DNA of 64,000 bases. Origin: Acidobacteriaceae bacterium. GTDB taxonomy: Bacteria; Acidobacteriota; Terriglobia; Terriglobales; Acidobacteriaceae. The position numbers and the translations under genes were made by a program. This document shows positions 7,232 through 55,800 of the stretch, one piece after another. Every line of letters begins with the position of its first letter. Position 1 is the first letter of the stretch. The DNA is taken from assembly GCA_030037545.1 (NCBI GenBank), contig JASHRF010000010.1, positions 1 through 64,000 of the forward strand. The letters run 5' to 3'. The notes under the pieces were generated by a model. The model was given only the letters and a program-made list of their open reading frames with translations. It did not search any database and was not told where the DNA came from.

Positions 7232-8143
7232 CGCCAACCTCCTGATCCAGTTTCAGTACGAATCGTGTTCACTAGAGCATAAAGGGGAAAGTTCCTTCCC
7301 ATGGGAAGAAACTGTGAAAATTATGCCCTGCCTATCGCCGTCCAGCGCGCCCCCGCCGGACAGTCACCGCAATGAGTGTCGCAATTTCGCGTGGCTTCCG
7401 CAAGAGCCAGGGCAGTAAATTCTGCCATTCCAGACCTGTTGAGCCGGCTTTCCAAGTCAGCATTCTTTCACGGGTCCAGCGTTTTCGCAACGACTGTGTC
7501 CGGATCGCAATTCTCTGCCGGGTGGCATTTTCCCAAGGAAAAGACACCCTTCACTACGCCTCAGATACCCTGGTGCGTGCGTTCTCGATCGACTTCAGCA
7601 CGACTGAGCCGGTCGCCTCGGTAGAAACCCCGGCCGCAGGCCTGACCCTCTGCCCGGTTACAAGACCGCACCGATAACAGTTTTTCGAAGACCGATCAAG
7701 CCGTGCCCCGATTCATGACCTCGCCGGTTTTGAATTCATCCGTCACCTGTAACGTCATGCCCGGTTCGAATGCCGTTTCCGCGAGGAGTCTTCCCCTTTC
7801 TCAGCCGCAAGCCTGCAACCCAACTCCGCAGCTTTTGTCTTGACGGGCCGAATGTTGCGTGTTAGTTTTTGTCACATCTAAGGAGTCTCACCAAACCGGA
7901 CCCGGACTCAACCGCAGGCTCAGTTAGGATGTGTGCCTGAGAGTTGAGGTGCTGTTTTCCGTCAGGAGGTTTTCCTGGCGCTTCCCTGTTTTTGTGGGTT
8001 TGCCGCGCTCCGCGGCCCACCGATGTGAAATTAGAGTTCGACAGCACTCCCTTTACGTGCCAGCCGATCCAGCCCCTGAATCAGTGTTCCCCATTCCCCC
8101 ACCCCACACCTGGGTTCTGGTGTTTGTTGTCTGGAGAAGAACG
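7232..8143. other. Intergenic region, no supported gene
   Basis: This region of about 900 bp separates the divergent DUF4280 and FG-GAP genes. Open frames of 60-100 codons exist on both strands (for example 7372-7677), but they overlap each other in different frames, lack ribosome sites and resemble no family. It probably holds the promoter and long leader of the giant surface-protein gene. I see no clear riboswitch or operator. Confidence 0.5.
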
Positions 8144-39528: not shown

Positions 39529-41841
39529 TTAGTTTTCCACGTCAAGCGTAAATGCCGTCGTAGAGAGAACGCCGTTGCCGTTCGTCCCGGCGATCGTAAC
39601 GGTGTAATCTCCAATGCCCGGATTTGCAGGCGCCGGGACGTCGATGGTCAAGTAGCAGGTGTAGGTGCCTGGCGGCGCTTCACCTCCAATGCAGAGCGGG
39701 ATACTGATGATCTCATTCATCTCATTGATGGGAACGGGGAGCAAAGTCGACGATGATACCATTGACAACGCTTTGAGGGCCACCCCGGAAGGATCGCTGA
39801 ACCCACTGGGGATGGTGATCGTGATTGGATACAAGATGGCGGGACCGCCTACCGTCACCACGACTGGGCCGTCGGCCGAGAGCAGGACTCTAGGCGCCAA
39901 GGTGTCAATCAGCGCCTGTCCCTTGGGGCTTCCCCATCCAGTGACCATGTTGTATTCGCCCGTGAGGACCGAATACCCACCGTTACTTCCCTCTTCAATC
40001 TCATTGAAGTTGGTGAGATAGGTGGTATTGTTTTCACCTACCTCGCCGGCGATGTAGTCCTCGCCGATGGTGTAAGTGTAGGGGTTGAGAAACCCAATCG
40101 AGGGTTGGTTGTTAGCGGCGGACTGCTGGTTGACGAGCGCCGCAAAACCAGCCCAGCGTGGAGCAGCAAAGCTGGTGCCTCCCCAATAATTGGCAGTGCA
40201 TGAGCCTAAGGAGCAGACATAATTGTCGAAGTTCGCGTCCATTGCCACGTCAGGCGCGTCGCGGTAGCTAGTCGAGGTTTCGTTGGGATCGGGCGTGCCG
40301 TCGTCGATCAATGGCTCCTGGTAGGCGTTGCCGGACTGGTAGGAGGGTATTGGGAAGTCGTCCGGGCTGATGCCGCCGCCGCTGTAGCTCCACCCGCTTT
40401 CCGACACCCAGGAGCCCCCGGCGCCGCTGGTTGTCAGGTCTGTCCCGCCAACCGTAGTAACATAGGGCGTCTCCTCGGGATAGAAATAGCATCGGTAGGG
40501 ATTCGTGTAATAGCAGGTGAAGTTCGAATTCCAGGAGCCGTTGTCTCCGGCGGCAGCAAAGAAGCTGATGCCAATCGCGTTGAATTCCTGGAACGCATAA
40601 TTATCGGGATCGTTGAGGGGATCCTCGGGAGCCCAGTTCCAGGAGATACTCGCCTGGTTGCAACCTACGCCCGCTCCATAGTCGTTAATCATCTGCTCGA
40701 AAATGGCATAGTCATCCGAGCTTGACGGAAAGTTGTAGTAAAACGGGTAGTTTCCGCTGGGCGGGGCTTGGGTCCATGCGCCTGCGTCAGGCGCGATGTA
40801 CACGCGAAGCTGACTCATGCCGGGGGCCATGCCGATTGCCTGGGCCATATCGATCACGACTTCCAGCTCATCGCCGTCGTACGTGCCAACGTTGCCTCCG
40901 TTCACCGGCACGTTGTTGATGGGTATGGTGTATTGAACTCCGCCGGTGGTATATGACAACAGGTAATCGGTGTTGCCGCTATACCCGCCGTTGCCGTTTG
41001 TGGTCGACGTGGCCGTGTTTGCCCCGGATTGCCCCGCTAACGTTTGAGTAAGGTCGTTGCCGCCGGTCGAGTAAGAAGGGTTGTCGGTCATGTCATAGCC
41101 ACCAAATTCGACTAGGCTGACGCATTGGCCGTTGCCCGTCAGGCCGGTGGCCCCTAGAGTTTTGGTGTAGTAAGCCGCGCGCATGTCGCTGGCAAGGTAG
41201 GCCCCATTGTCGCCGGAAGATCCGTTTACGTTAGCTTGACCATTGCCCTTCGAAAGTGCCGGACGAGGCGGCGAAAAGTTGTTCAGGCCGGAAATGGCCT
41301 GGACCGGAACGCTAAAGTTCAAAGAAGGCTGGCGGTCGAGAGAGAAAAACAGCCGGTTTTCGGTCGGATGCTGGTAGATGTTCATTTTCACATGAAACGC
41401 GCTCTCAATTTGCGCTACAGTGCCCTGGACAGGCACGCTCATGCGATCCGCGGGCGTTCCGGTCACAGTGAAGCCGCTGGCTTGAGCGAACTTTACCAAT
41501 GCGTTGTAATCGTCTGCGGTGGGGCCGAACATCTGCGTGAACTGCGGTACAGTGAGGAATTGGCGGTAATTGGGGCTGTTTGAGTCGTAAAGCTGATTCA
41601 GCAGATTCTGCAGCTGGGCCTCGTTGCGCAGCGGCAGCACGATCGAAAAGTAGAGTTGTTGCGTGGACGATAGGTGAGCTACCAATGCCGCCTGCCCGTT
41701 TGACACTGCGAGCGGGACGTTATTGGACAGCACTGGGGTCGCTTGCTGCGCCAGCGCTAACGATGTGAACGACATGAGCGCGGCTGCGCAGGCAAGCGCA
41801 GCCGGTCCGAACAGAGAACGAGGACTTCTCTTCCGGTTCAT
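39529..41841 (-). CDS. Sedolisin (S53) serine-carboxyl protease, pro-kumamolisin type
   Basis: This is a secreted acid protease. The 770-residue precursor has a signal peptide (ending near LALA-QQ), a pro-kumamolisin activation domain (about 40-185, with LSSTQQLYFSIVLPLRNEAQLQ and GTPADRMSVPVQGTVAQIESAFHV), and a catalytic domain with the sedolisin pair in ELEVVID (Glu327 and Asp331, the E-x3-D spacing) and the nucleophile in GGTSFAAPRWAGF (Ser557). A C-terminal Ig-like extension of about 130 residues ends TTAFTLDVEN. All key residues are present, so it should be active. Such enzymes are common in acid-tolerant soil bacteria and degrade external protein. Its start is the ATG at 41841, followed by a basic MNRKRS region. 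Confidence 0.92.
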   Translation of the reverse strand: MNRKRSPRSLFGPAALACAAALMSFTSLALAQQATPVLSNNVPLAVSNGQAALVAHLSSTQQLYFSIVLPLRNEAQLQNLLNQLYDSNSPNYRQFLTVPQFTQMFGPTADDYNALVKFAQASGFTVTGTPADRMSVPVQGTVAQIESAFHVKMNIYQHPTENRLFFSLDRQPSLNFSVPVQAISGLNNFSPPRPALSKGNGQANVNGSSGDNGAYLASDMRAAYYTKTLGATGLTGNGQCVSLVEFGGYDMTDNPSYSTGGNDLTQTLAGQSGANTATSTTNGNGGYSGNTDYLLSYTTGGVQYTIPINNVPVNGGNVGTYDGDELEVVIDMAQAIGMAPGMSQLRVYIAPDAGAWTQAPPSGNYPFYYNFPSSSDDYAIFEQMINDYGAGVGCNQASISWNWAPEDPLNDPDNYAFQEFNAIGISFFAAAGDNGSWNSNFTCYYTNPYRCYFYPEETPYVTTVGGTDLTTSGAGGSWVSESGWSYSGGGISPDDFPIPSYQSGNAYQEPLIDDGTPDPNETSTSYRDAPDVAMDANFDNYVCSLGSCTANYWGGTSFAAPRWAGFAALVNQQSAANNQPSIGFLNPYTYTIGEDYIAGEVGENNTTYLTNFNEIEEGSNGGYSVLTGEYNMVTGWGSPKGQALIDTLAPRVLLSADGPVVVTVGGPAILYPITITIPSGFSDPSGVALKALSMVSSSTLLPVPINEMNEIISIPLCIGGEAPPGTYTCYLTIDVPAPANPGIGDYTVTIAGTNGNGVLSTTAFTLDVEN

Positions 41842-42463: not shown

Positions 42464-42853
42464 TTGGCGGGCCTCGTCAGTGGCCCCTTTTTCGCGAACA
42501 TCCTCACCCAGGAGATCGGCTATCAGGTTGTGTCAGGAGAACCCTGCTACCTGCCATGCTGCACTTCCTCCTCGACGTGCGTCTTTCCAAACGCGGCGAT
42601 TCCACAAAGTGCATGGTCAGTCCCGGCGCAACGGATGCTCGAATACATTCCCTTTCCGAACACGGCTTCGGGGACCTTCGCTACCTCTTCCTACGATCAA
42701 ACGGTGCGCGACGACAAGGCAGGCTCGCGGGTCGATTGGAGCACACACTTGGGGCTGATGTCAGCCTACTACTTCATCGACGACTTCTTATCCAGTAGCG
42801 CAGGGCGGAGCCAGCGCACCGGGTTTTTCGGCCGCGCGCTTGCGCGAGGTTAA
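42464..42853 (+). pseudogene. Fragment of Oar-like TonB-dependent receptor
   Basis: About 110 residues match the interior of the large acidobacterial carboxypeptidase-regulatory-like/Oar-type TonB receptors: VSGPFFANILTQEIGYQVVSGEP, CVFPNAAIPQSAWSVPAQRMLEYIP, FPNTASGTFATSSYDQTVRDDK and RVDWSTHLGLMSAYYFIDDF. Intact members exceed 1000 residues and carry a signal peptide, a carboxypeptidase-like domain, a plug and a barrel. Here nothing before or after the fragment continues the family, so it is a deletion remnant. The motif order matches the family and the reading frame is undisturbed within the fragment, so the decay is fairly recent or the piece was moved by recombination. Confidence 0.7.
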
Positions 42854-42914: not shown

Positions 42915-42930
42915 TGTGACCGCCGTCACA
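42915..42930. promoter_or_regulatory. Perfect CRP-type palindrome upstream of the seven-gene operon
   Basis: TGTGACCGCCGTCACA fits the CRP consensus TGTGA-N6-TCACA with no mismatch and lies about 97 bp before the chosen start of the DAHP synthase gene. It is the best operator candidate in the window. A CRP/FNR-family regulator would link the operon to cAMP, oxygen or nitrogen-oxide signals. Which one cannot be told from the site. Confidence 0.6.
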
Positions 42931-43026
42931 GGTCTTGCTGCAACCGCATCATTTTCCACCCTTTGATTGAGGCAGCGTGTATTTGCCAGACCTACACTGA
43001 TGCTTCCCCAGACAGGAGTACGCGGG

Positions 43027-43914
43027 GTGCGCGAAAGCTGGCAAGGCCGGTTTGGCGAAACCCCCGGCGTTCTCAAAGGTGCGAGTCACGAACAGACGAT
43101 CGTGCCCGTGCTCGACTTTGAGATCGGCGGGAGCGAGTTCATCACCATGGCTGGGCCTTGCTCGGTTGAAACCGAGGCACAGCTCCTCTCCACTGCTCAC
43201 AGTGTTCGCCGCGCTGGCGCCCGCATTCTTCGCGGAGGCGCCTTCAAGCCCCGCACTTCTCCTTACTCATTTCAGGGTCTCGGTCTTGATGGGCTCAAGC
43301 TGCTGGCTCACGCGCGTCATGAGACCGGGCTGGCTATCGTCACAGAGGTCATGTCTGAGACCGACGTGGACCTGGTTGCCGAATACGCAGATATTCTGCA
43401 AATTGGCTCGCGCAACATGGAGAACGACTCGCTGATTGTTGCGGCAGCGCGCTCAGGCAGGCCGATGCTGCTCAAGCGCGGCTTGGTGGCCACCGTTGCC
43501 GATCTTTTTCGCGCTGCCCAGCTCGCGCTCGACTATGGCAACCCCAATGTCATCCTTTGCGAGCGCGGCATCCGCACTTTTGAAACGGCGATGCGCAACA
43601 CATTCGATGCAGCGTCGATCGCGGTCATGAAGCATGTATCGCATCTGCCGGTCATCGCCGACCCGAGCCACGCTACGGGGCGCCGTGATCTGGTGCCCTT
43701 TGCGGCGCGCATCGGGGTCGCTGCCGGCGCCGATGGACTCATCGTCGAAGTTCATCCTGATCCAGATACCGCGTGGAGCGACGGCGACCAGTCGCTCGAT
43801 TTCGCCGAGTTTGACGCAATGATGGTTTCGCTCGCGCCGTGGATTGCGCTGCGCGAGGGCGAGATGCGGTTGCGCTTGGAAAACAATCTCGATGTCGCGG
43901 AGGTGGCGGGATGA
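43027..43914 (+). CDS. aroF: 3-deoxy-7-phosphoheptulonate (DAHP) synthase, type I beta
   Basis: DAHP synthase condenses phosphoenolpyruvate with erythrose 4-phosphate, the first step of the shikimate pathway. The 295-residue product has the full catalytic set: MAGPCSVETEAQL, ILRGGAFKPRTSPYSFQGLG (substrate loop), VTEVMSETDVDLVAEYADILQIGSRN, LLKRGL, NVILCERGIRTFE and LPVIADPSHATGRRD, then GLIVEVHPDPDTAWSDG. No ACT or chorismate-mutase regulatory domain is fused. The start is the GTG at 43027, 8 bases after AGGAG; an ATG at 43000 is the alternative. Its stop overlaps the next gene's ATG (ATGA), so it is the first gene of a tightly coupled operon of exported proteins, which is unusual for this enzyme. 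Confidence 0.92.
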   Translation: MRESWQGRFGETPGVLKGASHEQTIVPVLDFEIGGSEFITMAGPCSVETEAQLLSTAHSVRRAGARILRGGAFKPRTSPYSFQGLGLDGLKLLAHARHETGLAIVTEVMSETDVDLVAEYADILQIGSRNMENDSLIVAAARSGRPMLLKRGLVATVADLFRAAQLALDYGNPNVILCERGIRTFETAMRNTFDAASIAVMKHVSHLPVIADPSHATGRRDLVPFAARIGVAAGADGLIVEVHPDPDTAWSDGDQSLDFAEFDAMMVSLAPWIALREGEMRLRLENNLDVAEVAG

Positions 43915-45317
43915 GATTGTCCCTCGGCGCGGGTGCGATTGCGGTCCTGATTGCTGCATTGAGTGTGCGGTGCGGCCTCTCTGCGGATTCGTCACAGCTA
44001 TCTCTCCCTGATGTAATCGTTACCGCTGCGCCCGGCTACCAGCCCCTGGCAGCTCTTAGCGGCAAAGAGCGCTTCCCGAAGGGAGCGCAACTGCTCCTGG
44101 TTCACAACGGCAGCGCCGAGCCGCTTGCGTCTCAGCTTTGGGCCTCGGCCGATGCGAATGTATCGTTCGACGGCCAGCGCGTACTGTTCGCCGGCAAACA
44201 GAAGCAGACCGATCATTGGCAGATCTGGGAGATGACACTGCGTGGCCGCTCGCTGCGCCTGCTTTATGCCGGATCCGATGATGCCATCCGGCCCATGTAT
44301 CTTTCTTCCGGACAATTCTTCTTCGCTCAGCGCACTGCGCCGGGATTTCAGATCGTCGTTGCCGGCACGCAATCCGGCGATCCTTTCGCCCCGATTGACT
44401 CCAACGCGAGCGCAAAACTGCTTCCCATCACTTATCTCCCAGCCAGCGCAATTCCCGACGATGTGCTGCTCGACGGGCGCATTCTCTTTGAGTCGTACTT
44501 TCCGCTCGGCTCAGGTACGACGCCCGAAGAGTTCCTGGTCTATGCCGACGGCTCTGGCGTCGAGTCGTATCGCTGCGATCACGGCCGCGCGCGCTGGGGC
44601 GGCCATCAGCTTGCCTCGGGCGATGTGATCTTTACCCACGGAACATCGCTGGCGAGGTTTACGTCGCCGCTTGCACACGAGGCGCCGGTCGCCGCGCCGC
44701 ACGGCGAATATGCCGGCGCGATTGCGGAAACGCAATCGGGCGAGTGGCTGGTGAGCACGCGGCCGGACGCCCAGGCGCACTTCGCGCTTCGGCTCGTTAC
44801 TCCGGGCGCAGCCGGAATGCGGACCGTATTTTCGCGTTCCGATCGCGATCTGATCGAACCGGTGCTCGTGGCGCAACGCGCACGGCCGCACCGGCACCCT
44901 TCAGCGCTGCATCCATGGAACTACGCGAACATGCTGTCGCTCGATTCGCGCCTCTCGCGCGAAGGCGATCTCAAGACGGCTCCTGCATCGGTCCGGCTTG
45001 AAACCCTCGATCCGCAGGGCCGCATTCGTTCCAATGGCACAGCGCCCGTCGAGTCGGATGGCTCTTTCTTTGTCCAGGTTCCGGGCGACCGGCCCATCCG
45101 ATTTGTTCTGCTTGATCGGAATGGTAAAGCCGTGCGCCAGGAACGCGGATGGTTCTGGATTCGCGCCGGCGAGCAGCGCATTTGCGTTGGCTGTCATACA
45201 GGACCGGAGTGCGCCTCTGAAAACCGCGTACCGGCAGTCTTGATGCGCACCACTACGCCATTCGACCTGACCAACGCAAAGCCTGCCACGCAAACGCAGG
45301 CGAGTAGGGGCAACTGA
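43911..45317 (+). CDS. Secreted HzsA-like/PD40-like protein with one CxxCH haem site
   Basis: The 468-residue protein has a signal peptide (about 1-24). The central part reads like a beta-propeller of PD40/TolB-type blades (NVSFDGQRVLFAGKQKQTDHWQIW, AIRPMYLSSGQFFFAQRT). The C-terminal part has IRFVLLDRNGKAVRQERGWFW, then GEQRICVGCHTGPEC (CVGCH at about 425-429). This combination of FDGKRVLFAGK-type blades and a GEQR.CVGCH end resembles the hydrazine synthase alpha subunit-related (HzsA-like) family; I am fairly but not fully sure of that assignment. One c-type haem is expected. It is coupled to DAHP synthase upstream and separated by one base from the ASPIC/UnbV gene downstream. Confidence 0.75.
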   Translation: MRLSLGAGAIAVLIAALSVRCGLSADSSQLSLPDVIVTAAPGYQPLAALSGKERFPKGAQLLLVHNGSAEPLASQLWASADANVSFDGQRVLFAGKQKQTDHWQIWEMTLRGRSLRLLYAGSDDAIRPMYLSSGQFFFAQRTAPGFQIVVAGTQSGDPFAPIDSNASAKLLPITYLPASAIPDDVLLDGRILFESYFPLGSGTTPEEFLVYADGSGVESYRCDHGRARWGGHQLASGDVIFTHGTSLARFTSPLAHEAPVAAPHGEYAGAIAETQSGEWLVSTRPDAQAHFALRLVTPGAAGMRTVFSRSDRDLIEPVLVAQRARPHRHPSALHPWNYANMLSLDSRLSREGDLKTAPASVRLETLDPQGRIRSNGTAPVESDGSFFVQVPGDRPIRFVLLDRNGKAVRQERGWFWIRAGEQRICVGCHTGPECASENRVPAVLMRTTTPFDLTNAKPATQTQASRGN

Positions 45318-45318
45318 C

Positions 45319-47097
45319 ATGAGGCACTTTTCACTTTTGTTGATCGGCGTATTGGGGATGGCTCAGCATTCCGTCGCTCAAGCCGGACCAAAACTTGCGG
45401 AAGCGGCTCAGTTCGCTGATCCCATTGCGATGGCACTCAGCGATGAGGCGCCTAAGGCGCAGACAGCCGAACCGCAGGCGCCATCGGCAACAGAGTCCAC
45501 CATCAAATTTGAAGACGCCACCGACGCCTCGGGTATCGATTTCACCGAAAGCTTCGGTTCGGCCAAGTTGGGCTCGCTGCTTGAAGGCACTGGCGCGGGC
45601 TGCCTCTGGTTCGACTACAACAATTCCGGACTGCAATCGCTCTATGTCGTCAGCGGCCGTCCGCTCGACGATTCGATGCATCCGTTTCCACTGAAAGTAA
45701 AGCCGAATCCTCCGCCGCATAACCACCTCTATCGGAACGACGGCAATGGCCACTTCACCGATGTGACCGATCAATCCGGGCTCAACCCCGACATGTACTC
45801 AGTGGCCGTTACTGCCGCGGACTACGACAATGACGGCAATGAAGACCTGTTGGTCACGGGCTACGGCAAAGTCGTTCTCTATCACAACGACGGCAACGGC
45901 CATTTTACCGACGTCACCGCGAAGGCCGGCATCAAGGTCGATGGCTGGGCCATCAGCTCTACCTGGCTCGATTACGACAGAGATGGGTGCGTTGATCTGT
46001 TTGTGGGACGCTACGTGAAGTTCGACCCCGCCTACCGCGCCTTTTACGCGCCCACCAATTATCCGGGCCCGCTGGACTACGAAGGCGAAACGAACATGTT
46101 GTTCCACAACAACTGCGATGGGACGTTTACCGATGTGACGGACAAGTCGGGCATTGGCGCATATGTGGGACGCGAGATGGGCGTGACGGCGTCGGACTTC
46201 GACAATGACGGTTGGGACGATATCTACGTGGCCAACGACCGGACAGAGAACTTCCTCTTCCGCAACAAGCATGATGGAACCTTTGAGGAGATTGGGAACG
46301 ACACGGGCACGGCCTACGGGCAGAATGGCGAGTCGACTTCGTCGATGGGCCCGGTCTTTGCCGACTTCGAAGGCCGGGGATTGCTCGACTTGTGGGTGAC
46401 GGACGGCCACTACAATCGCTTCCTGCTAAACACCGGAAAGCAGAGCTTTGAGGACATGGGCGCATCGAATGGCATTTCGCAGGCCAATGCGCAATACGTG
46501 AGTTGGGGCACGGGCGTCTACGATTTCGACAACGACGGCCAGCTTGACATCCTCATCTTTCACGGCGGACTCATTCAACTCATCCCGGAGGAGCACTCGT
46601 TGTTTCGGGGGCTCGGCAACGGGCGGTTCGAAGATGTCTCTCGCGACGCCGGTCCCGTGCTGAGTAATCGCACCGTAGCCCGCGGCGCATGCTTTGCCGA
46701 CTACGAGAACAACGGCAAGGTTGGCGCTTTTATGGTGAATCTCGGCGCAAAGGGGGCCCTGCTGAAAAACGTTTCAACGGGTGCCGGGCATTGGATCGAA
46801 ATCAAGCTTGTGGGCGGCATGCGCGCAGGCGATCGCGGAGCAGCACCCGGACCTGGCGCAAAGAGCAACCGTGACGGAATCGGCGCGCGCGTTGAAATCG
46901 TCGCCGCCGGCAAGCGCCAAACGGCCGAGCGGGTTGCCGCGAGTGGCTATCTCTCGCAGAACGATGAGCGCCTGCACTTTGGGCTAGGCGCAGCGGAATC
47001 GATCGATCGGATCACCGTGCATTGGCCGAGCGGGCGCGTGCAGACGCTCACGAACCAGGCCGTCGATCGCGTAATCACCGTCGAGGAGCCCAAATGA
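45319..47097 (+). CDS. Secreted CRTAC1-type protein with FG-GAP repeats and ASPIC/UnbV domain
   Basis: The 592-residue protein has a signal peptide (about 1-21), then FG-GAP/VCBS repeats with calcium-type loops such as ADYDNDGNEDLLVTGYG, LDYDRDGCVDLFVGRYV, SDFDNDGWDDIYVAND and YDFDNDGQLDILIFHGG. The end is an ASPIC/UnbV domain (about 510-592: SNRDGIGARVEI, SGYLSQNDERLHFGLG, ITVHWPSGRVQTL). Related acidobacterial and planctomycete proteins are exported, with no established chemistry. It starts one base after the HzsA-like stop and overlaps the next gene by 4 bases, so translation of the three is coupled. It carries no CxxCH. Confidence 0.88.
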   Translation: MRHFSLLLIGVLGMAQHSVAQAGPKLAEAAQFADPIAMALSDEAPKAQTAEPQAPSATESTIKFEDATDASGIDFTESFGSAKLGSLLEGTGAGCLWFDYNNSGLQSLYVVSGRPLDDSMHPFPLKVKPNPPPHNHLYRNDGNGHFTDVTDQSGLNPDMYSVAVTAADYDNDGNEDLLVTGYGKVVLYHNDGNGHFTDVTAKAGIKVDGWAISSTWLDYDRDGCVDLFVGRYVKFDPAYRAFYAPTNYPGPLDYEGETNMLFHNNCDGTFTDVTDKSGIGAYVGREMGVTASDFDNDGWDDIYVANDRTENFLFRNKHDGTFEEIGNDTGTAYGQNGESTSSMGPVFADFEGRGLLDLWVTDGHYNRFLLNTGKQSFEDMGASNGISQANAQYVSWGTGVYDFDNDGQLDILIFHGGLIQLIPEEHSLFRGLGNGRFEDVSRDAGPVLSNRTVARGACFADYENNGKVGAFMVNLGAKGALLKNVSTGAGHWIEIKLVGGMRAGDRGAAPGPGAKSNRDGIGARVEIVAAGKRQTAERVAASGYLSQNDERLHFGLGAAESIDRITVHWPSGRVQTLTNQAVDRVITVEEPK

Positions 47098-49028
47098 GCA
47101 GCGTCCTCACCAATACGCGCAAGCTGCCGCACCGTTTGGCCGTGGCCGCATTAGCTGTATGCGGATCGTGCCTGGTCGGTCTCTCGTCGCTCGTGCCTGC
47201 CACTCATGCCGCACAGGACGAAAACGGGATCGAGACTTACATTTCTCCGCTTGAAATTGTCGTTTCACCTGACGGCGCACGGCTCTATGTGCTTTGCCAG
47301 GACGCCCGCGAAGTTCGCGTGCTCGATGCGGCAACGCATGCGCTCATCAAGTCCATCGCGGTCGGCCAGGTCCCGCGCGGCATCGCGCTCTCTCGCAGCG
47401 GAGATCGGCTTTACGTCACAAATTCCTGGGACGATACGCTCTCGGTGATCGATACCCATCAGTTGACAGTGGTTGCAACCTGGGCCGTTGGAGCCGAGCC
47501 TTCGGGTGTTGTCTCCGATCCAGACGGCAAGCAGATTTTTGTGGCCAATCGCATCTCGAACGATGTGGCCGTGCTGAATGCGCGGACCGGCGCTGAAGAA
47601 AAGCGGTTGAAGGCCGGCCGCGGAGCCAGCTACCTCGTCTTGTCTCCCGATGGCAGCCGTATCTATGCGACACACGTTTATCCCAATCCATCGCCGCTTC
47701 GCACCGGGCTCGAAAACCGTACCCCTCCTCAATCTGAGATTACGGTCATCGATGCGGCTCGTGCCCAGGTAGTCGATCGCATTCCACTCAAGTCGATCGC
47801 CGGCGTCTTTCATCTCGCTTTTTCTCCCGATGGCCGCCTCGGCGCAGTGGCCGAATACCACCCCAAGAACATGATTCCGCTGGCGCACCTTGAGCACGGC
47901 GGCGCATTCGCTTACACGCTCACGCTCTTTGGCGCCGATGTAGGTGAGCCCGTTGAAGTTCCCCTCGACGAACTCGAGCGCTACGCATCGCAGCCATTCG
48001 GCGTGGCGTTCACACCCGACAAACGGGAACTTTATGTTTCAGTTGCCGGATCGGAATGCGTTCTGGCCATCGACGTTCAGCGCCTGCTGCAGTTCGTTCA
48101 CTCGCATCCACGGCCGGCGAGCAACTCGTTTGAGAGCGACCTTGCCGCCAGCGGCAATTATGTTGTTGCCCGCATCCCTGTGGGAGCCAATCCACGAGGG
48201 ATCGCGGTCAGCCGCGACGGCCGCTCGGTGTTCGTGGCCAACCGGCTTGACGACACCATCAGCGTCATCGACACGCGCAGCAATCGCGTGGTTTCAATGA
48301 TCGCGCTGGGTGACGGGAAGCCACCTTCGGCTATGCGCCACGGCGAGCAGACGTTCTACACAGCCCGCTACTCGTTTCAGGGCCAGATCGGCTGCTCCAG
48401 TTGTCATATCGACTCCACCTTCGACGGCATTACGTGGAACCTGGAGCCGGACGGCTTTGGCCGCAGCATTGTCGACAACAAGCTGCTTGAGGACATCAAT
48501 GGCACGGAGCCCTACAAGTGGACCGGCACCAATCCGAGCGTTGCCATCGAATGCGGACCGCGCACCGAAAAGTATTTCTGGCGGTCGGAGCAGTATGACG
48601 ACCGGACGCTGGCCGATCTGTCTCTGTACGTCCTTTCGTTGCCACCCCGCCCCAACCGCTGGCGCTCGCCTGATGGGGAGCTCACTCCGGCACAGGAGCG
48701 CGGCAAGGCCATCTTTGAGCGCTCCGTGGACACGTTCAAGAAGCCAATCCCGGAATCCAACCGCTGCTCCTATTGCCACAGCGGGCCTAAAGGCACCAGT
48801 CAGAAGATCTTCGACGTGGGGACGCGTAAGCCCACCGACAATACGGGCCTTTTCAAGGCGCCAATGCTGACCAACATCGTGCTCACAGCGCCCTACCTGC
48901 ACGATGGGTCGGCGCGTTCGCTTGAGGAAATTTGGACCATCTACAACCCAGACGACAAGCACGGCCGCACCAACGACCTTACCAAAGACGAACTTAACGA
49001 TCTGATCGAATACCTCAGGTCTCGATAG
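47094..49028 (+). CDS. YVTN beta-propeller fused to di-haem peroxidase-type cytochrome c
   Basis: The protein is 644 residues from the ATG that overlaps the previous stop. The signal peptide is followed by a YVTN propeller (about 40-430: GARLYVLCQDAREVRVLD, GDRLYVTNSWDDTLSVIDT, GKQIFVANRISNDVAVLN, GRSVFVANRLDDTISVIDT). The C-terminal domain has two c-type haem sites, CSSCH (434-438) and CSYCH (558-562), plus AYLHDGSARSLEEIW-type sequence (APYLHDGSARSLEEIWTIYN, about 619-638), as in bacterial cytochrome c peroxidase/MauG-like enzymes. The haem domain is shorter than canonical CcpA. MauG-family relatives oxidise protein Trp or Tyr residues. Here the fused propeller could hold the substrate or partner (inference). 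Confidence 0.88.
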   Translation: MSSVLTNTRKLPHRLAVAALAVCGSCLVGLSSLVPATHAAQDENGIETYISPLEIVVSPDGARLYVLCQDAREVRVLDAATHALIKSIAVGQVPRGIALSRSGDRLYVTNSWDDTLSVIDTHQLTVVATWAVGAEPSGVVSDPDGKQIFVANRISNDVAVLNARTGAEEKRLKAGRGASYLVLSPDGSRIYATHVYPNPSPLRTGLENRTPPQSEITVIDAARAQVVDRIPLKSIAGVFHLAFSPDGRLGAVAEYHPKNMIPLAHLEHGGAFAYTLTLFGADVGEPVEVPLDELERYASQPFGVAFTPDKRELYVSVAGSECVLAIDVQRLLQFVHSHPRPASNSFESDLAASGNYVVARIPVGANPRGIAVSRDGRSVFVANRLDDTISVIDTRSNRVVSMIALGDGKPPSAMRHGEQTFYTARYSFQGQIGCSSCHIDSTFDGITWNLEPDGFGRSIVDNKLLEDINGTEPYKWTGTNPSVAIECGPRTEKYFWRSEQYDDRTLADLSLYVLSLPPRPNRWRSPDGELTPAQERGKAIFERSVDTFKKPIPESNRCSYCHSGPKGTSQKIFDVGTRKPTDNTGLFKAPMLTNIVLTAPYLHDGSARSLEEIWTIYNPDDKHGRTNDLTKDELNDLIEYLRSR

Positions 49029-49039
49029 GAGATGGCGTG

Positions 49040-50101
49040 ATGAAGAGGCTCTGTACAATCGCACTGCTAATGGCCGCGGCAACCCTGGCCTTTGCATCGG
49101 GCCCGAATATGCCCCGTTTCCGCTTTGAGAACTTTACAACCGCCGATGGTCTTCCCAACGATCATGTGTACGCGGTGCTGGTGGATGGAGACCGCATCTG
49201 GGCCGGCACCGATAACGGGCTCGGGCTCTACGAGAACGGCAGGTGGAAAACCTACACCACAGCCGACGGGCTTGCCCATCGCGCCGTGCTTTCGCTCGCC
49301 CTCGACAAGCGCACGGGCGACGTCTGGGCCGGTACCATGGGCGGCCTTAGTCGCATTTCGGGTGGGCGCATTGACAGCTTCACCCAATTGAACTCCGGGT
49401 TGAGCAACGACGTGGTTTATGGAGTTTCGGTGGAAGGCGAGAACGTCTGGGTAGCGACGGCGGCCGGCGCATGCCGACTCAACCTGCATACCGGAGAGTG
49501 GTCTCTTTATAACGAGCGCAATACGCCCATGGAGGAGATATGGGCATACGGCGTTTCCGCAACGCCGACCAAGGTCTTCTACGCCATATGGGGCAGCGGG
49601 GTGCTTGAGTACAACCAGAAGACTGGCCGCTGGAACAGGTACGACGATCCCGATGGCCAAAACAGCATCGTGCTCTTCAAAGACCAGGGGCTGGTGCACG
49701 AGATCGTCGGAAATGTAAGTTATGTGGACGACATTCTCTGGGTTGGTACATATTTCGGTGATAGCCGTTATGACGGCCGCTACTGGCACAATTTTCTGAC
49801 CAAAGATAGCGGTCTGCCATCGAACTTTACCAACTTCGTAAAAGGTGTTGACGCGAATCACGCCTGGTTCTGCACCGACAAGGGACTGGCCTACTATGAC
49901 GGCGTGAACTGGGCCGTCTACACGCTCTCGCTTACAACGCACAAGCCCGTGATGACAGTGCGTGACGGGGAGGGGAATGTAACGCAGATTCCCGCAACCA
50001 CCGGACCCGCGCACAACTATATTCTCGGCATTGACTCTCAGGGTGATGACATCTGGGTTGCCACAGCCGAGGGGCTGAGCCACGGAATTCGTCAACGATA
50101 A
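49040..50101 (+). CDS. Exported two-component-regulator-type propeller protein
   Basis: The protein has 353 residues with a signal peptide ending near LAFA-SG. The rest is Reg_prop-type propeller blades: FTTADGLPNDHVYAVLVDGDRIWAGTDNGLGLY, YTTADGLAHRAVLSLALD, DVWAGTMGGLSRI and later DSGLPSNFT and ISWVG-like segments. In hybrid two-component sensors these blades form the periplasmic sensor, but here there is no membrane helix, kinase or DNA-binding part, so it is a free periplasmic propeller. The start at 49040 has AGGAG 9 bases upstream; a GTG one codon earlier is possible. It is 11 bases after the di-haem gene, in the same operon. Confidence 0.82.
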   Translation: MKRLCTIALLMAAATLAFASGPNMPRFRFENFTTADGLPNDHVYAVLVDGDRIWAGTDNGLGLYENGRWKTYTTADGLAHRAVLSLALDKRTGDVWAGTMGGLSRISGGRIDSFTQLNSGLSNDVVYGVSVEGENVWVATAAGACRLNLHTGEWSLYNERNTPMEEIWAYGVSATPTKVFYAIWGSGVLEYNQKTGRWNRYDDPDGQNSIVLFKDQGLVHEIVGNVSYVDDILWVGTYFGDSRYDGRYWHNFLTKDSGLPSNFTNFVKGVDANHAWFCTDKGLAYYDGVNWAVYTLSLTTHKPVMTVRDGEGNVTQIPATTGPAHNYILGIDSQGDDIWVATAEGLSHGIRQR

Positions 50102-50120
50102 GAGAAAAGGAACCAAAACC

Positions 50121-50621
50121 ATGAGCACATTTGCTGAGATTTTCGCGAGCCTTGGACAGAAGCCGGTGAAGAAGCGCGCCATAACGAATCACGAAGTGCT
50201 GAACGAAGCGTTCGCATACGCAAAGCCAAGTTCATTTTCGCGCGGCATGAGGATCGATCTGAACGGCTTGACGATTTTGCTGATCTCGGGCACGGCGTCG
50301 ATCGACGAGAACGGCGTGAGCGTGCACAGCGGCGATTTTCGCGCGCAGATGCGCCGCACATTTTCGAACATCACGGGCTTGCTGGCCAGCGAAGGCTGCA
50401 CCTGGCACGATATCGTTCGCACCACCTGCTACCTTCGAGACATCGAGCGCGACTACGAAGCATTCAACGAGGAGCGCACAGCGTTCTTTAAACAGCAGGA
50501 ACTCGACCCGCTGCCCGCATCCACCGGCATTCAGGCGATCCTCTGCCGGCCGGAGTTACTCGTCGAGATCGAGGCGATCGCCATGTTCCGCACGGAAGAG
50601 TCCGGTGAGAGCAAGGAGTAG
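50121..50621 (+). CDS. RidA/YjgF-fold protein, chorismatase-like subgroup possible
   Basis: The 166-residue cytoplasmic protein (no signal peptide) has a RidA/YjgF-type core at about 35-155: SSFSRGMRI, ILLISGTASIDENGVSVHSGDF, QMRRTFSNITGLLASEGCTWHDIVRTTCYLRDI and a C-terminal ILCRPELLVEIEAIAMF. RidA proteins hydrolyse reactive imines. The ISGTAS-x-x-x-x-x-S-H-x-GD pattern also resembles the C-terminal half of FkbO/Hyg5-type chorismatases, which cleave chorismate to hydroxybenzoates or dihydroxy acids. Those enzymes are about 330 residues, and this protein has only one such domain, so activity is uncertain. Its presence with a DAHP synthase in one operon makes the chorismate link worth testing. 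AAAAGGA lies upstream. Confidence 0.78.
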   Translation: MSTFAEIFASLGQKPVKKRAITNHEVLNEAFAYAKPSSFSRGMRIDLNGLTILLISGTASIDENGVSVHSGDFRAQMRRTFSNITGLLASEGCTWHDIVRTTCYLRDIERDYEAFNEERTAFFKQQELDPLPASTGIQAILCRPELLVEIEAIAMFRTEESGESKE

Positions 50622-50626
50622 CGGCC

Positions 50627-52618
50627 ATGCTTAAGGGATGGTTGGTGGTTTGTGCAGGTTTGTTCATGCTATGCGCAACGCTCGCTTGCGCGGCGCAGGA
50701 TGTGAAACACGTTTGCGAATGCGGCGCCCATCCGCCCGGCCCTCCCAAAGACCGTACGGTCGAGCCGTATGCAGGGGTGCCTGCGGACCTGCGTCCGTTC
50801 ACCAAGTTCGAAAAACCTTACTACAAAAACTACATCACTCCAAATATCTATACCGGCGCGGGGCGCGACATTCCCCAGCCCAAGGGTCTCACCGAGGTCC
50901 GCATCGGTTTCGCTGCTCCGGTAGAGCCCAATCCCGAGGCGGTCTTCGGACAGCGAATGCTCCACGGCGCCCAACTCGCCGTCGAGGAGTGGAACGCCCG
51001 CGGCGGCTACGGCGGCATACCTTTTAAGCTGATGATCCACAACGACTACAACAATTGGCAGGCCAACGCGGTCTACGGCCCGGATCGGCCGACCGATAAA
51101 AGCATATGGGGATCGACGTCGGATATGGCCGTGAAGATGGCTTATGACGAGGAGGACTGGGCGATCTTCGGCTCCATCAGCTCCGAGACGACGCACATTA
51201 TCTTGCGCGTGTCTCTGAAATCCGAGGTTCCCATTGTCAACTCCGCTTCCACCGACCCCACCATTCCAGAAACTTACATTCCCTGGTACTTCACCGACAT
51301 CCAGGACGACCGCGTGCAGTGCCTCACGCTCGCACGGCGCATATACACCGAACTTGGCCTCAAGCGTGTGGCGATCCTGCGCGTGAGCAATCGCTACGGA
51401 AGGATGGGCGTAGGTAATTTCCGCAATGCCGCGATCCGATTGGGTCACCCGGTCGTCATCGAACAGGAGTACCTGCCCGGCGATACAGATTTCACGCGCG
51501 AATTGCATATCATCCGCGACTCGCGCGTCGATGGAGTCGTGCTATGGGCCGATGAAGGCGAGGCGGCCGGCATCCTGAAGCAAATGCGCGCGATGGGTAT
51601 GAAGCAGCGCGTCTTCGGCGCCTACCGCACGCTGGGACCGGAATTGCTGGCTCAAGCCGGTACCGCTGCCGAGGGATTTGAAGCTGTTTTTCCTTACGAC
51701 CCGACACGTAACGATCCTCGCTGGCTCGACTTCAACCGCCGCTTCGAGGCCCGCTTCCACGAGCCGCCGGAGCAGTTTGCCTCGCTGGCTTATGACGCCA
51801 TGAATATGCTGCTGGACTCCATCTGCAAGGCTGGGCTGAACCGCGCGCGGATTCACGACGCGCTCGCAGACATCGAAGAGTATGACGGCGTGACCGGACA
51901 CATGATCTTCGATCCCAACCAGAAGAATGTGGCTCCTATGTACCTGGGCACCGTCCACAATGGCGCCGTCGCCTACCGGCTTGCAACGATGGATAAGCCG
52001 CCCACAGCGCAACACCCTTCTGACGCGCCGGCGCCGTCCGCGGTGCCACAGACGCCCTACGCGCGCGTGGGCGAAGATGGAGTGTGTTACGTAGGCCCGC
52101 GAACCGCCAGTCTGCCGCCGGGACCGGTACGTGTGGTTCTGTTCGGGCCCAACGCGGCGGGGATCGCGCAGTCGCCGGAGATCCTGACGGCGCTGCGCGC
52201 CAAAGCGCCGAATGGAGAGCAATGGATCTTGCTGCCCGTGGAGAGCGGGCAGAACTGGGGCGCGGCGTCAACACAGCTGGTTCACGATCTGATGGACGAA
52301 CATGCCCTGGCGATTGTGGCTCTGGATCGAGATGCCGGCCACTTGTCGGAGCAGCTTGCGTTAAAGTGCTTCGTCCCGGTGGTGGCGCTGAGCAACGACA
52401 AATCGCTCACCTCGGCCAATGTCCCCTGGATCTTCCGCATGCCGGCTACAACCACCCCGGCTACGGCGCTGCGGCTGCTGGAAGAGGCTTCGGACCGCAA
52501 CGGCGCGAACCGGGGACAGATCCGGGATATTCTTGCTTCGGGCAAACCGATTCTTGGCGTTGCTTTCGAGCCCGGCGGCGAACCGCGCTCTGCGGTCTCC
52601 ACGGCGCAGCCAGAGTAG
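50627..52618 (+). CDS. ABC-type periplasmic binding protein with a second binding-protein-like lobe
   Basis: The product has 663 residues. A signal peptide (about 1-22) is followed by a short Cys-containing linker (CECGAHPPGPPKD) and a Leu/Ile/Val-type periplasmic binding domain (about 85-470: IGFAAPVEPNPEAVFGQRM, HGAQLAVEEWNARGGY, IFGSISSETTHIIL, VAILRVSNRYGRMGVGNFRNA, GVVLWADEGEAAGILKQMRA, DAMNMLLDSICKAGLNRARIHDALADI). A second region (about 500-655) has VRVVLFGPNAAG, ALAIVALDRDAGHLSEQLA and CFVPVVALSNDKS, which read like another, truncated binding-protein-like fold. No permease or ATPase gene is in the operon. It starts 5 bases after the RidA-like gene. Similar binding proteins accompany PQQ-linked YVTN systems in methylotrophs, a possible analogy. 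Confidence 0.85.
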   Translation: MLKGWLVVCAGLFMLCATLACAAQDVKHVCECGAHPPGPPKDRTVEPYAGVPADLRPFTKFEKPYYKNYITPNIYTGAGRDIPQPKGLTEVRIGFAAPVEPNPEAVFGQRMLHGAQLAVEEWNARGGYGGIPFKLMIHNDYNNWQANAVYGPDRPTDKSIWGSTSDMAVKMAYDEEDWAIFGSISSETTHIILRVSLKSEVPIVNSASTDPTIPETYIPWYFTDIQDDRVQCLTLARRIYTELGLKRVAILRVSNRYGRMGVGNFRNAAIRLGHPVVIEQEYLPGDTDFTRELHIIRDSRVDGVVLWADEGEAAGILKQMRAMGMKQRVFGAYRTLGPELLAQAGTAAEGFEAVFPYDPTRNDPRWLDFNRRFEARFHEPPEQFASLAYDAMNMLLDSICKAGLNRARIHDALADIEEYDGVTGHMIFDPNQKNVAPMYLGTVHNGAVAYRLATMDKPPTAQHPSDAPAPSAVPQTPYARVGEDGVCYVGPRTASLPPGPVRVVLFGPNAAGIAQSPEILTALRAKAPNGEQWILLPVESGQNWGAASTQLVHDLMDEHALAIVALDRDAGHLSEQLALKCFVPVVALSNDKSLTSANVPWIFRMPATTTPATALRLLEEASDRNGANRGQIRDILASGKPILGVAFEPGGEPRSAVSTAQPE

Positions 52619-52872: not shown

Positions 52873-55800
52873 TTACGTTGTCGCCACCCTCTCTTTCTCG
52901 CTCTCTCTCAGCGTATGAGAACTGAGTCTTTCTTTGCGTAGCTCGTGCCGCTTCATAAGCAGAAAGAAGACCGGAACCAAAATCAGAACGTGAATCGTCG
53001 ATGTGATCATTCCGCCGACGATGGGTGCGGCGATCGGCTTCATCACATCGGAGCCGATGCCCGACTCCCAGAGGATGGGCGCAAGGCTGAGAATCACTGC
53101 GGTGACCGTCATCAACTTGGGGCGAAGCCGTTGGACTGCACCGGCGATGGTGGCCTGCACCAGGTCGGCCTCGGTCAGAGGCGTGTCTTGCTTCATTCGC
53201 TCCTCAAGCGCCTCATGCAGGTAGACCACCATCACCACGCCAGTTTCAACAGCGATGCCGAAGAGCGCAATGTAGCCGACCCACACAGCCACGCTGAAGT
53301 TGTATCCAAGCAGCCACTGCAACAAGAGCCCGCCTGACATGGCGTAGAACGTGGGGAAGATGAGCACCGCAGCCTCGGCAACTGATTTGAAGACCAGGTA
53401 GAGGAGCATAAAGATGACGAAGAAGACGATCGGCAAAATGATCATGAGCCGCTGCTTGGCCCGCATCTCGAATTCATACTCTCCCGCCCAGCGCCACGTG
53501 TAACCCACTGGAAGCGTCACTTTTTGCTGAAGCAGACGATTTGCCCGGTTGACGAAGCCGCCATAATCGCTCGTCTTCAGGTTGAGGTAAACGTAGCCGG
53601 TGAGCGAGCCGTCCTCATCGCGAATCATGGCGGGACCTCGCGAGTAGTAGACGCGGGCTACTTCACTCACGGGAATCTGCTCACCGGAGGGCGTTGAAAT
53701 CAAAGCCTGCGAAAGGGTATTCGAGCTATCGCGAAAGTCATGCTGATAGCGGACCGCAATCGGAAACCGCTCGCGCCCTTCGATGTTCTCTGCAATGTCC
53801 ATGCCGCCGATCTCGGAGGAAACAACGCGCTGCACGTCGGCAACGGTAAGGCCGTAGCGCGCGGCTGCAGGACGGTTCACATCCACGTTGAGATAAAAAC
53901 CCTGAGACACGCGCTCGGCATAGACACTGCTCGTCTCGGGCATGGTAGAGAGCACCTGCTGCATCTGTGCACCGAGGTCCTGAATGCGCGTCAAGTCGTT
54001 GCCCTGAATCTTGATCCCAATCGCCGTTTTGATCCCGGTGAGCTCCATATCGAGACGGTTTTCAACCGGCATGGTCCACGCGTTCGTGAGACCGGGAAAT
54101 TGCAGTTTGTCGTCCATCTCGCGGATGAGCTTGTCGTAGGTTATGCCAGGGCGCCATTGCTCTCGCGGCTTGAGCATGATGGTGGTGTCGTACATGTCGA
54201 GCGGGGCATTGTCTGTTGCGCTGTCGGAGCGGCCTACAGTTCCGAAGACTGTTGACACCTCTGGGAATGAGTGAATGATGCGGTCTTGCTGCTGCATGAG
54301 CGAGACGGCTTGCGTAATGGAGATTCCAGGCAGCGAACTCGGCATGTAGAGGGAAGATCCTTCGTAGAGCGCCGGCATGAACTGGCTGCCGAGTTTAAAG
54401 CAGAGCGGAATCGTTGCTGCGAGGAAAGCGAGGTTGAGCGCGACGACGATTTTCCAGTGACACAGGCACCAGCGCAGAACCGGGAGGTAGAGCGCCTGGC
54501 TGAGGCGGGCTGCGGGATTCTTCGATTCGGGCAACAGTTTGCCGCGCAGGAAGATCGGCAGGAGCGCGGGAACCAGGGTGATCGAAAGCAGCGAAGAGAA
54601 GATCAACGCGAGAGTTTTTGTCCACGCGAGTGGACGGAACATGCGGCCTTCCTGCGCTTCGAGCAGAAAGACAGGCAGGAACGATACGACAATGATGATG
54701 AGCGAGTAGAAGAGCGCGGGGCCGACCTGCTGCGCTGCGACGACAAGGACGCGGCGGCGTTCCGGGCCATCAAGTTCATGGTCGCCATTGCGCTCGGCTA
54801 TATGGCGGTAGCCGTTTTCCACCATCACGATAGCCGCATCGATAAGCACACCGATGGCCAACGCCAGCCCGCCCAGCGACATGATGTTCGAACTGACCTG
54901 CAAATAGTACATAGGGATGAACGCGGCCAGAACCGCGATGGGCAGCGTGATGATGGGCACGAGGGCTGAGCGGAAGTGGAACAGGAAGAAGATGCTGACG
55001 AAGCTGACGATGATCGCTTCGATGATCAGGTCGCGTTTGAGGGTATGAATGGATTGGTTGATCAGCCAGGAGCGGTCATAGCCGGTGACGATTTCGACGC
55101 CGGGAGGCAATGAAGGACCAATCTCCCTGAGCTTGGCTTTTACGCCGTCGATGACATTGAGTGCATTCGTTCCATACCGCATGACCACAATGCCGCCGAC
55201 AGTTTCGCCTTCTCCCTGCCAATCGGCTGCACCGCGCCGCGCGTCGGGGCCAAGGGTAACGGTGCCCAGGTCGCGTACCAGCACGGGTGTTCCATTCTTG
55301 TTCGCGACGGGAACATTTTCAAGATCCGCGACATTGCGCAGATAACCGAGGCCGCGAATCATGTACTCCGCACCGCCCATCTCGAGTACGTCGCCGCCGA
55401 CTTCGTTGGTGCTCTGCCTTACGCGGTCGATCACGGTGGAAGCCGGAATGCCGTAGGAGAAGAGCTTTTGCGGATCGAGGTTGACCTGATACTGCCGCAC
55501 GAATCCCCCAATGCTGGCCACTTCGGCCACTCCCGGAACCGTTTCAAGCTGGTAGCGCAGGAACCAGTCCTGCAAAGTGCGCAGATCGGCGAGGCTGTGC
55601 TGGTGCGAGCGGTCGACGATGGCGTATTCGTAGACCCAGCCGGCGCCGGTTGCATCCGGACCGATGACGGGATTCACCCCAGCCGGCAGACGGCCCGCGA
55701 GCTGTTGCATGTATTCGGAGACGCGGGACCGCGCCCAGTAAAGATCGGTGCTGTCATCGAAGATGACGAAGACGCAGGAGTCACCAAACATGGTTTGGGC

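Follow-up and report, generated by a model that had tools for sequence, protein, structure and literature searches.

The analysis of a 64,000-nucleotide stretch of the genome of a soil bacterium of the Acidobacteriaceae (contig JASHRF010000010.1; hereafter the window, i.e., the whole stretch analysed) disclosed a putative seven-gene operon joining a spare gene for DAHP synthase (DAHPS; aroF), which opens the biosynthesis of aromatics, to distant relatives of the genes for hydrazine synthase (HZS), the key anammox enzyme. As judged from the sequences, gene 2 (hzsA) is a short homologue of HZS alpha and gene 4 (hzsBC) a fused homologue of HZS beta and gamma; the other genes encode a CRTAC1-family protein (crtac1), a Reg_prop propeller (regp), a Rid-fold protein (rid) and a solute-binding protein (pbp). 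The system is real, widely conserved in Acidobacteriota and rare in a second phylum. Its best explanation, held with a confidence somewhat short of even, is a periplasmic HZS-like haem oxidoreductase complex with a dedicated cytosolic arm, the whole forming one transcription unit under a CRP/FNR-type regulator.

The relationship with HZS emerges from profile comparisons. Against NCBIfam, the best match of gene 4 is the hydrazine synthase beta-gamma fusion model (178.8 bits, cut-off 1250), with HzsB at 172.6 bits. Profiles built from 21 and 22 homologues were compared with the PDB sequences: that of gene 4 matched HZS beta (5c2v_B, 9.5e-63) and HZS gamma (5c2v_C, 2.2e-43) and that of gene 2 matched HZS alpha (5c2v_A, 4.3e-26), all three subunits scoring far above MauG, cytochrome c peroxidase (CCP) and MbnH. 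For the propeller part of gene 4, a generic YVTN surface-layer protein alone outscores HZS beta; this propeller aligns across nearly all of HZS beta, and the di-haem domain comes after it. The original prediction, made from the letters of the window alone, had called gene 4 a YVTN-di-haem peroxidase-type protein. The YVTN and CCP_MauG domains are indeed there, but the label is too weak for a fused HZS beta-gamma homologue, and the view of a mere MauG/CCP-type protein is not supported, since, once generic YVTN propellers are set aside, no solved structure comes closer than HZS beta and gamma. Gene 2, predicted to be an HzsA-like protein with a CVGCH motif, does show both the HZS_alpha match and the motif; it consists of an N-terminal propeller region and a haem alphaI domain, ends about 40 residues past the alphaI motif and contains this single CxxCH. 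In one relative (L043), the alpha protein has three more CxxCH.

The conservation of the haem sites was followed in 26 related betagamma proteins, using HZS numbering (5c2v_C position + 39, counted by hand in the alignments), which matches Cys165, Asp168, His144 and His332 as they appear in passages of PMC12758564 and PMC12607021. The gammaI and gammaII CxxCH motifs are present in 26/26, and so is the His pair (His229 and His332) that a passage of PMC12607021 gives as ligands of haem gammaII. The gammaHis144 site is Trp in all 26, the HZS His being lost, and the gammaAsp168 site is Thr in 21 and Asp in none. At the gammaCys165 site, 16 proteins (including that of the window) have Cys, nine Asp and one Ala; Cys and Asp alternate between lineages and might both bond the haem. 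Together with the homology, the kept sites support a putative two-haem relay in the gamma part and a further haem site in alpha.

These same residues bear on the possibility that the locus encodes a hydrazine synthase proper, forming hydrazine from nitric oxide (NO) and ammonia or performing an alternative anammox step. The homology extends to all three subunits, the gammaI and gammaII haem sites are kept and the window retains gammaCys165; nevertheless, this possibility is very improbable, both from the loss of key residues and because the locus is not accompanied by NirK or HAO-like genes. In fact, the C-terminal haem alphaII domain is absent, no Tyr occurs within five positions after CxxCH (the alphaTyr591 site) in the 22 and 24 aligned sequences of two alignments, and the gammaHis144 and gammaAsp168 sites are changed as described. 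The genome of the window has no NirK match and, at 1e-10, no HAO-like octahaem match, and Hagglund et al. 2025 (PMC12758564) reached, in the text consulted, the same verdict on their homologues. From its residues, the locus is to be regarded as HZS-like and not as a hydrazine synthase. NirK as a supplier of NO was also discarded (over the model cut-off in 2/99 genomes, neither with the locus, with weaker matches in 47 more), as was a tie to HAO-like octahaem proteins (12/60 genomes at 1e-10, nine with the locus and three without).

It might also be supposed that the locus is a MauG/MbnH-like maturation system, whose di-haem domain would act on a partner protein (CRTAC1, Reg_prop or the binding protein) by oxidising one of its aromatic side chains. 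The MbnH and MauG equivalog models do match gene 4 weakly, both failing their cut-offs (49.9 bits against 362.85 and 24.4 bits against 443.85, respectively), and the Trp conserved at the gammaHis144 site occupies the catalytic Trp position of CCP/MauG, according to a passage of Hagglund et al. (PMC12758564). HZS beta and gamma are, however, much nearer, gammaII retains the HZS ligand His332, and alpha, DAHPS and Rid would be left unexplained, so that such a maturation system appears distinctly unlikely.

The conservation of the cluster was assessed on loci anchored on alpha, whose neighbourhoods were mapped by tblastn. Of 121 distinct alpha matches, 65 have at least 2.5 kb upstream and at least 9 kb downstream and were retained (56 were dropped for a short flank); in 26 of those retained, alpha is at least 55% identical to that of the window, and these count as near relatives. 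The inclusion of DAHPS in the system, which had been made to depend on its adjacency in related genomes, stands: all seven genes occur together in 52/65 loci, on the same strand and within 12 kb. Taken singly, hzsBC is present in 65 loci, crtac1, the propeller and the binding protein in 64 each, rid in 59 and aroF in 53, and these counts do not change when limited to the alpha strand and to 12 kb. In the 39 loci with alpha less than 55% identical to that of the window, all seven genes are found in 29, aroF in 30 and rid in 35. An amidase gene (24/65) and a TPR-ASPIC gene (26/65) are not part of the core. In many members of the genus (e.g., L069:1338-6342), TPR-FG-GAP-ASPIC and amidase-signature genes precede aroF on the same strand; in the window none of these stands beside aroF, and a 73% identical amidase is located on another contig of the same genome (L250, G000 contig C110).

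An alpha match is present in 50/99 genomes (own included) and in 39/58 others of the same genus. Among the best 80 of 172 loci, 79 are named, and all of these are Acidobacteriota except one metagenome-assembled genome (MAG) of the FCB group; the carriers include Granulicella, Acidobacterium, Terracidiphilus, Candidatus Sulfotelmatobacter, Candidatus Solibacter, Candidatus Acidiferrum and Bryobacterales. The phylum group of this MAG, assigned from its title and separate from that of the window, is the second phylum referred to here (245 genomes). Four of its genomes harbor the alpha gene at 1e-15: two loci (L247 and L248) contain all seven genes in the order rid-aroF-hzsA-crtac-hzsBC-regp-pbp, a third (L246) has crtac-hzsA-hzsBC-regp-rid-pbp without aroF, and the MAG itself provides a short contig with crtac-hzsA only. 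In the phylum search with the alpha profile, at least 328/396 genomes gave a match at E 0.001, the weaker ones listed extending over either the TolB-like propeller or the short haem region and hence over only a part of the profile; above 100 bits, a threshold chosen after seeing the list, at least 20/396 genomes are found among the matches listed.

In the window, the seven open reading frames (ORFs) are co-directional on the + strand from 43000 to 52618 (Table 1), with gaps of -4, +1, -4, +11, +19 and +5 bases, exactly as originally predicted, and overlaps or short intergenic gaps recur among relatives. Signal peptides had been predicted for five of the last six products; hydrophobic N-termini of this kind are seen in all five, the export calls resting on the hydropathy of N-terminal stretches (12-residue window), which is 2.40-2.73 in these proteins and 1.10 in the Rid protein.

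Table 1. Genes, motifs and upstream site of the seven-gene cluster (positions in the window).
Feature	Position	Strand	Basis
CRP-type palindrome TGTGA-N6-TCACA, TGTGACCGCCGTCACA, ~70 bases 5' of the aroF start used	42915..42930	+	sequence search
DAHP synthase (aroF), class I-beta type, 304 aa	43000..43914	+	PF00793; TIGR01361 above cut-off
Exported HZS-alpha-like protein (hzsA), 468 aa	43911..45317	+	HZS_alpha domain
CVGCH haem motif, residues 425-429, equivalent of alphaC583-H587	45183..45197	+	
Exported FG-GAP/ASPIC (CRTAC1-family) protein, 592 aa	45319..47097	+	domain search
Exported fused HZS-beta-gamma-like protein (hzsBC), 644 aa	47094..49028	+	YVTN + CCP_MauG; HZS profile comparisons
CSSCH, haem gammaI motif, residues 434-438	48393..48407	+	
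Cys487, gammaCys165 site (third bond to haem gammaI in HZS)	48552..48554	+	alignment
CSYCH, haem gammaII motif, residues 558-562	48765..48779	+	
His623, gammaHis332 site (haem gammaII ligand)	48960..48962	+	alignment
Exported Reg_prop propeller, 353 aa from ATG; GTG at 49037 alternative start	49040..50101	+	Reg_prop domain
Cytosolic Rid-fold protein (rid), 166 aa	50121..50621	+	L-PSP/Rid domain
Ser134 replacing RidA Arg105	50520..50522	+	alignment; kept in at least 90% of 21 sequences
Exported type I solute-binding protein (pbp), Peripla_BP_6 at residues ~90-450, C-terminal extension	50627..52618	+	

By cut-off and motifs, the locus aroF product is predicted to be a genuine DAHP synthase: it scores 344.6 bits on TIGR01361 (cut-off 267.75), positions 1-74 of the 338-position NF006421 model being unmatched, and the invariant motifs are kept in an alignment of 18 sequences, including Cys54 and His224, which we take to be metal ligands. 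The window genome has four PF00793 matches, the locus aroF being one of these; among the 14 genomes checked, 13 have three to five and the remaining one has a single match, and the family also takes in relatives such as KDO8P synthase. The presence of aroF as a chance neighbour is scarcely credible: it is absent from 12/65 loci but present in 53, where the 59 PF00793 matches in about 65 Mb of the 14 genomes correspond to about 0.02 per 20 kb; moreover, different DAHPS clades occupy different positions and the gene recurs in the second phylum.

The position of aroF varies: in 69 loci the gene precedes hzsA, in 21 it stands between rid and pbp, in three it follows pbp and in two it is found elsewhere (counts not deduplicated); a position next to rid is also seen. 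A 51-row DAHPS tree was constructed from 12/56, 12/17 and 5/5 locus rows and 22/26 paralogues, the long L081, L219, L225 and L238 being excluded; of the PF00793 loci, six (L212-L217) gave no match in tblastn with the DAHPS of the window, and one was a duplicate. In this tree, the before-hzsA and rid-pbp types form separate groups (100/99 and 100/100, respectively), and the former joins two paralogues lying on other contigs of genomes that have the rid-pbp type (100/99). The approximately unbiased (AU) test rejected both a single clade of the two main types (p 0.000186) and one of all five position classes (p 0.00248); the classes were set before the tree and the clade test was run after viewing it. 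These conclusions rest on the 51-row tree, an earlier quick tree of 104 rows having given long-branch warnings. Given the several positions and the rejection of a single clade of locus DAHPS, which also strengthens the originally proposed link, as do the seven genes in two second-phylum genomes, DAHP synthase was probably recruited into the system more than once. Independent gain or replacement of the enzyme in different lineages is the simplest reading and points to a need rather than to chance, the paralogues being partly sampled (33 of the 63 PF00793 matches had loci). Clusters without aroF also occur in genus members: G052 and G030 each have one as a second copy (L031, L032), and in G010 the two copies present are of this kind (L034, L072); three of these four clusters are also without rid. 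An extra CxxCH before the di-haem domain was observed in L031, L032, L072, L062, L064 and L070.

The Rid protein carries the motif PASTGIQA-x2-CRPELLVEIEA and has Ser in the place of Arg105, the residue that RidA requires as an imine hydrolase. It is the most conserved part of the system outside the genus: in the second phylum it is 66-69% identical to that of the window, compared with 27-28% for alpha and 39-43% for betagamma. In the seven acidobacterial loci of other haem types the lead is small (Rid median 49%, from four loci, two of them of a distant type, vs. 47% for DAHPS). On these sequence features, it belongs to a Rid subgroup defined by PASTGIQ and the absence of Arg105, with a regular genomic partner. 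The hint that gene 6 might be a chorismatase (FkbO/Hyg5) was rejected: it encodes a single Rid domain of 166 aa, compared with about 340 aa, and scores 31.5 bits on TIGR04444, whose cut-off is 325; two other Rid-family models outscore this one (50.8 and 48.9 bits), both under their own cut-offs. A search of the PDB with a 57-residue N-terminal fragment returned one chance match (E 0.14), and a search for Rid on plasmids gave no match at 1e-20. In L121 and L128, the Rid protein is of the distant type (35-38% identity) and PASTGIQ is absent.

The upstream palindrome claimed in the original prediction was found in the window (TGTGACCGCCGTCACA), where, across the 64 kb, it is the sole exact match to TGTGA-N6-TCACA; tolerating one mismatch gives three matches compared with a shuffle mean of 1.10, so that within the window alone the site is weak evidence. 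Among aroF-first loci, a CRP-type site lies within 250 bases 5' of the first gene in 12/50 cases (exact) and in 6/50 with one mismatch, as opposed to 0/555 and 3/555, respectively, in random stretches of the same loci; extending the search to 350 bases and both orientations gave 11 exact and six near sites in 49 loci, vs. two and four in 545 controls. Another motif, TTGAC-N4-GTCAT (at most one mismatch), picked after the sequences were inspected, is present in 8/15 loci having a CRP/FNR regulator gene and in 8/545 controls. The recognition helix of the L043 regulator, SPETISR, is presumably FNR-like. Since the CRP-type site precedes aroF-first loci and the TTGAC motif occurs where the regulator gene is present, CRP/FNR control seems to be kept across loci while regulator and site differ.

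The main rival of the explanation given above is a stress-defence unit, in which NO or peroxide would be reduced by the HZS-like complex, while a DAHP synthase encoded in the operon would stand in for the Fe(II) enzyme inactivated by such oxidants, with Rid limiting damage. H2O2 is documented to attack DAHP synthase, and mononuclear iron is bound by NO (passages of PMC8115020); Rid proteins have been linked to the pre-emption of metabolite damage (passages of PMC4433059). The CRP/FNR-type regulator gene and sites, and the kinship of the di-haem domain with CCP/MauG, would also agree with it. On the other hand, Rid is devoid of the imine-hydrolase Arg; the locus DAHPS retains the invariant Cys54 and His224, the assumed ligands, and shows no obvious protection against oxidants; simple scavenging would hardly seem to call for five exported proteins (two of them additional propellers) and an amino-acid-type binding protein; and the two genomes with NirK, as the NO source, above cut-off are both without the locus. 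On balance, a defence unit is rather unlikely.

Under the preferred reading, i.e., an HZS-like complex with a cytosolic arm, haem gammaII, with its two His ligands, would accept electrons from a cytochrome c and hand them on to haem gammaI, which would activate a small oxidant (NO, peroxide or O2); the resulting intermediate might travel through a propeller channel to haem alphaI and react there with an organic substrate. The spare DAHP synthase would drive carbon into the shikimate pathway toward this substrate or its precursor, the Rid protein would deal with a reactive intermediate of it, and the periplasmic binding protein would capture either the substrate or the product, with CRTAC1 and Reg_prop possibly acting as propeller partners or scaffolds. 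It is the recurrence of DAHP synthase that points to a shikimate-derived substrate. The original proposal, that an aromatic compound would be produced or detected by the locus and undergo oxidation in the periplasm, remains a conjecture.

Several observations weigh against this explanation. A cytosolic arm and a periplasmic complex require a transporter, and none was found in the operon. The gene aroF is missing within reach in 12/65 loci, seven of which have a rid match, and in one of the three long-flank loci of the second phylum, so that DAHPS is frequent and not obligatory. The role of Rid is a guess, because the Arg for imine hydrolysis is missing, and 3/59 loci have the distant Rid type (less than 50% identity). 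As for the regulation, the CRP-type site is rare in hzsA-first loci (1/61 exact and 4/61 near, within 250 bases), and the TTGAC motif was, as said, chosen with the sequences in view.

Another possibility is a system for sensing or uptake, with an extracellular compound bound by the propellers and the binding protein, and with haems that would do no more than sense the redox state or a gas. The binding protein was correctly described as lacking a permease (no ABC permease stands beside it in the window, the ORF beyond gene 7 being on the opposite strand and, by eye, not one), and Reg_prop is a free propeller. Such a system is decidedly improbable, the two cytosolic metabolic genes having no explanation in it; the neighbours listed for 18 loci, most of these neighbours having no assigned identity, included no recognised signalling protein, which speaks weakly in the same sense.

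A further-reaching version of the preferred reading, which we consider doubtful, is that the locus represents a living form of the ancestral system behind HZS, in which gammaI and alphaI would cooperate via a tunnel to perform N-N, N-O or radical chemistry on a shikimate-derived molecule, with DAHPS and the new Rid class as the cytosolic half, and which would be widespread in Acidobacteriota. If so, a two-site haem machine was already in existence when anammox took it over, a handful of residues being altered and the aromatic arm lost, and the locus would be a place to look for the role of HZS before anammox. For hydrazine synthase, both de novo birth and descent from periplasmic haem proteins are debated as origins, and the relatives reported in 2025 came without a function. 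A concrete gene set is now attached to HZS relatives in Acidobacteriota and in two genomes of the second phylum; DAHP synthase offers a metabolic handle, i.e., a pathway and a substrate class to test, and the di-haem site shows a Cys/Asp alternation where HZS has a third haem bond.

The flanks of the cluster contain other genes. The ORF immediately 5' of aroF (42464-42853, +) has a weak likeness to OMP_b-brl_4 (1.7e-4, under cut-off) and is a possible remnant of a TonB-type receptor. On the opposite strand, an RND-type efflux pump (by eye) and a membrane fusion protein lie directly 3' of the operon (52873-57659, -), and a Pro-kumamolisin domain protein, a probable S53 peptidase, is encoded at 39532-41841 (-), past which there is an SBBP propeller protein (36018-39311, -). 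Farther away are an IcmF-like type VI secretion protein (2499-5942, +; PF06761, 3.9e-61) and a protein of 2351 aa (7931-14983, +) that combines FG-GAP repeats with eight matches to Ig-like domains.

Compared with known systems, the locus DAHPS shares the motifs of the class I-beta enzymes (TIGR01361) and scores above their cut-off; it differs in being devoid of the N-terminal part of the longer model and in being an extra copy tied to a haem operon. The Rid protein has, by sequence, the fold of RidA and of the chorismatases FkbO and Hyg5, but with Ser at Arg105 and a single domain of 166 aa instead of the approximately 340 aa of solved chorismatases. MauG, the di-haem cytochrome c peroxidases and MbnH share the fold family of the di-haem domain and the conserved Trp, whereas in the locus this domain is fused to an HZS-beta-like propeller, scores far under the equivalog cut-offs and has an alpha partner.

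Closer relatives are found among the loci themselves. Eight haem motifs precede the propeller in L119, L121, L122, L247 and L248 and one in L115, L127, L128, L129 and L246, while the window type has none; in these ten loci, Reg_prop and the binding protein are always present (10/10), Rid in 7/10 (two of the distant type) and DAHPS in 5/10. In the betagamma tree built here, a group of 26 rows (96/90) contains the window and is separate from the forms with eight haems or one haem before the propeller; the row for anammox joins a long outlier, and its root position was not used. Three loci (L116, L117 and L118) have betagamma proteins of 835-850 aa with six CxxCH, forming a group of their own (100/100), with CRTAC1 and alpha adjoining. 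We take Paludibaculum fermentans to be acidobacterial. In the consulted text of PMC12758564, this organism is placed in clade I, whose marks, like those of clade III, fit the loci with eight and one extra motifs, respectively. Clade II of the same work shares with the window the alpha-CRTAC1-betagamma order, the short alpha without alphaII, the two haem motifs and Trp at gamma144. As neighbours, the main text of this work mentions CRTAC1 and binding proteins; in a term search that covered the main text and left the supplements outside, it contains no DAHP, phosphoheptulonate, RidA or acidobacteri; a search of open-licence papers found none joining these genes. The protein family is known, and the seven-gene set, which was not found described, the regulators and the breadth are additions to the published HZS homologues. 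Passages of PMC10732223 propose that enzymes resembling HZS constitute a broader family acting on other substrates.

With HZS itself (HzsA/HzsB/HzsC of anammox bacteria, PDB 5c2v), the locus shares the propeller region and alphaI domain of alpha, nearly all of beta, the gamma part with haems gammaI and gammaII, and gammaHis332; in the window, gammaCys165 (Cys487) is shared as well, its haem bond being predicted from the site. It differs in an alpha without alphaII and Tyr591, in the Trp and Thr at gammaHis144 and gammaAsp168, in the fusion of beta and gamma (a fusion also reported for Scalindua) and in its partners, i.e., DAHPS, Rid, CRTAC1, Reg_prop and the binding protein.

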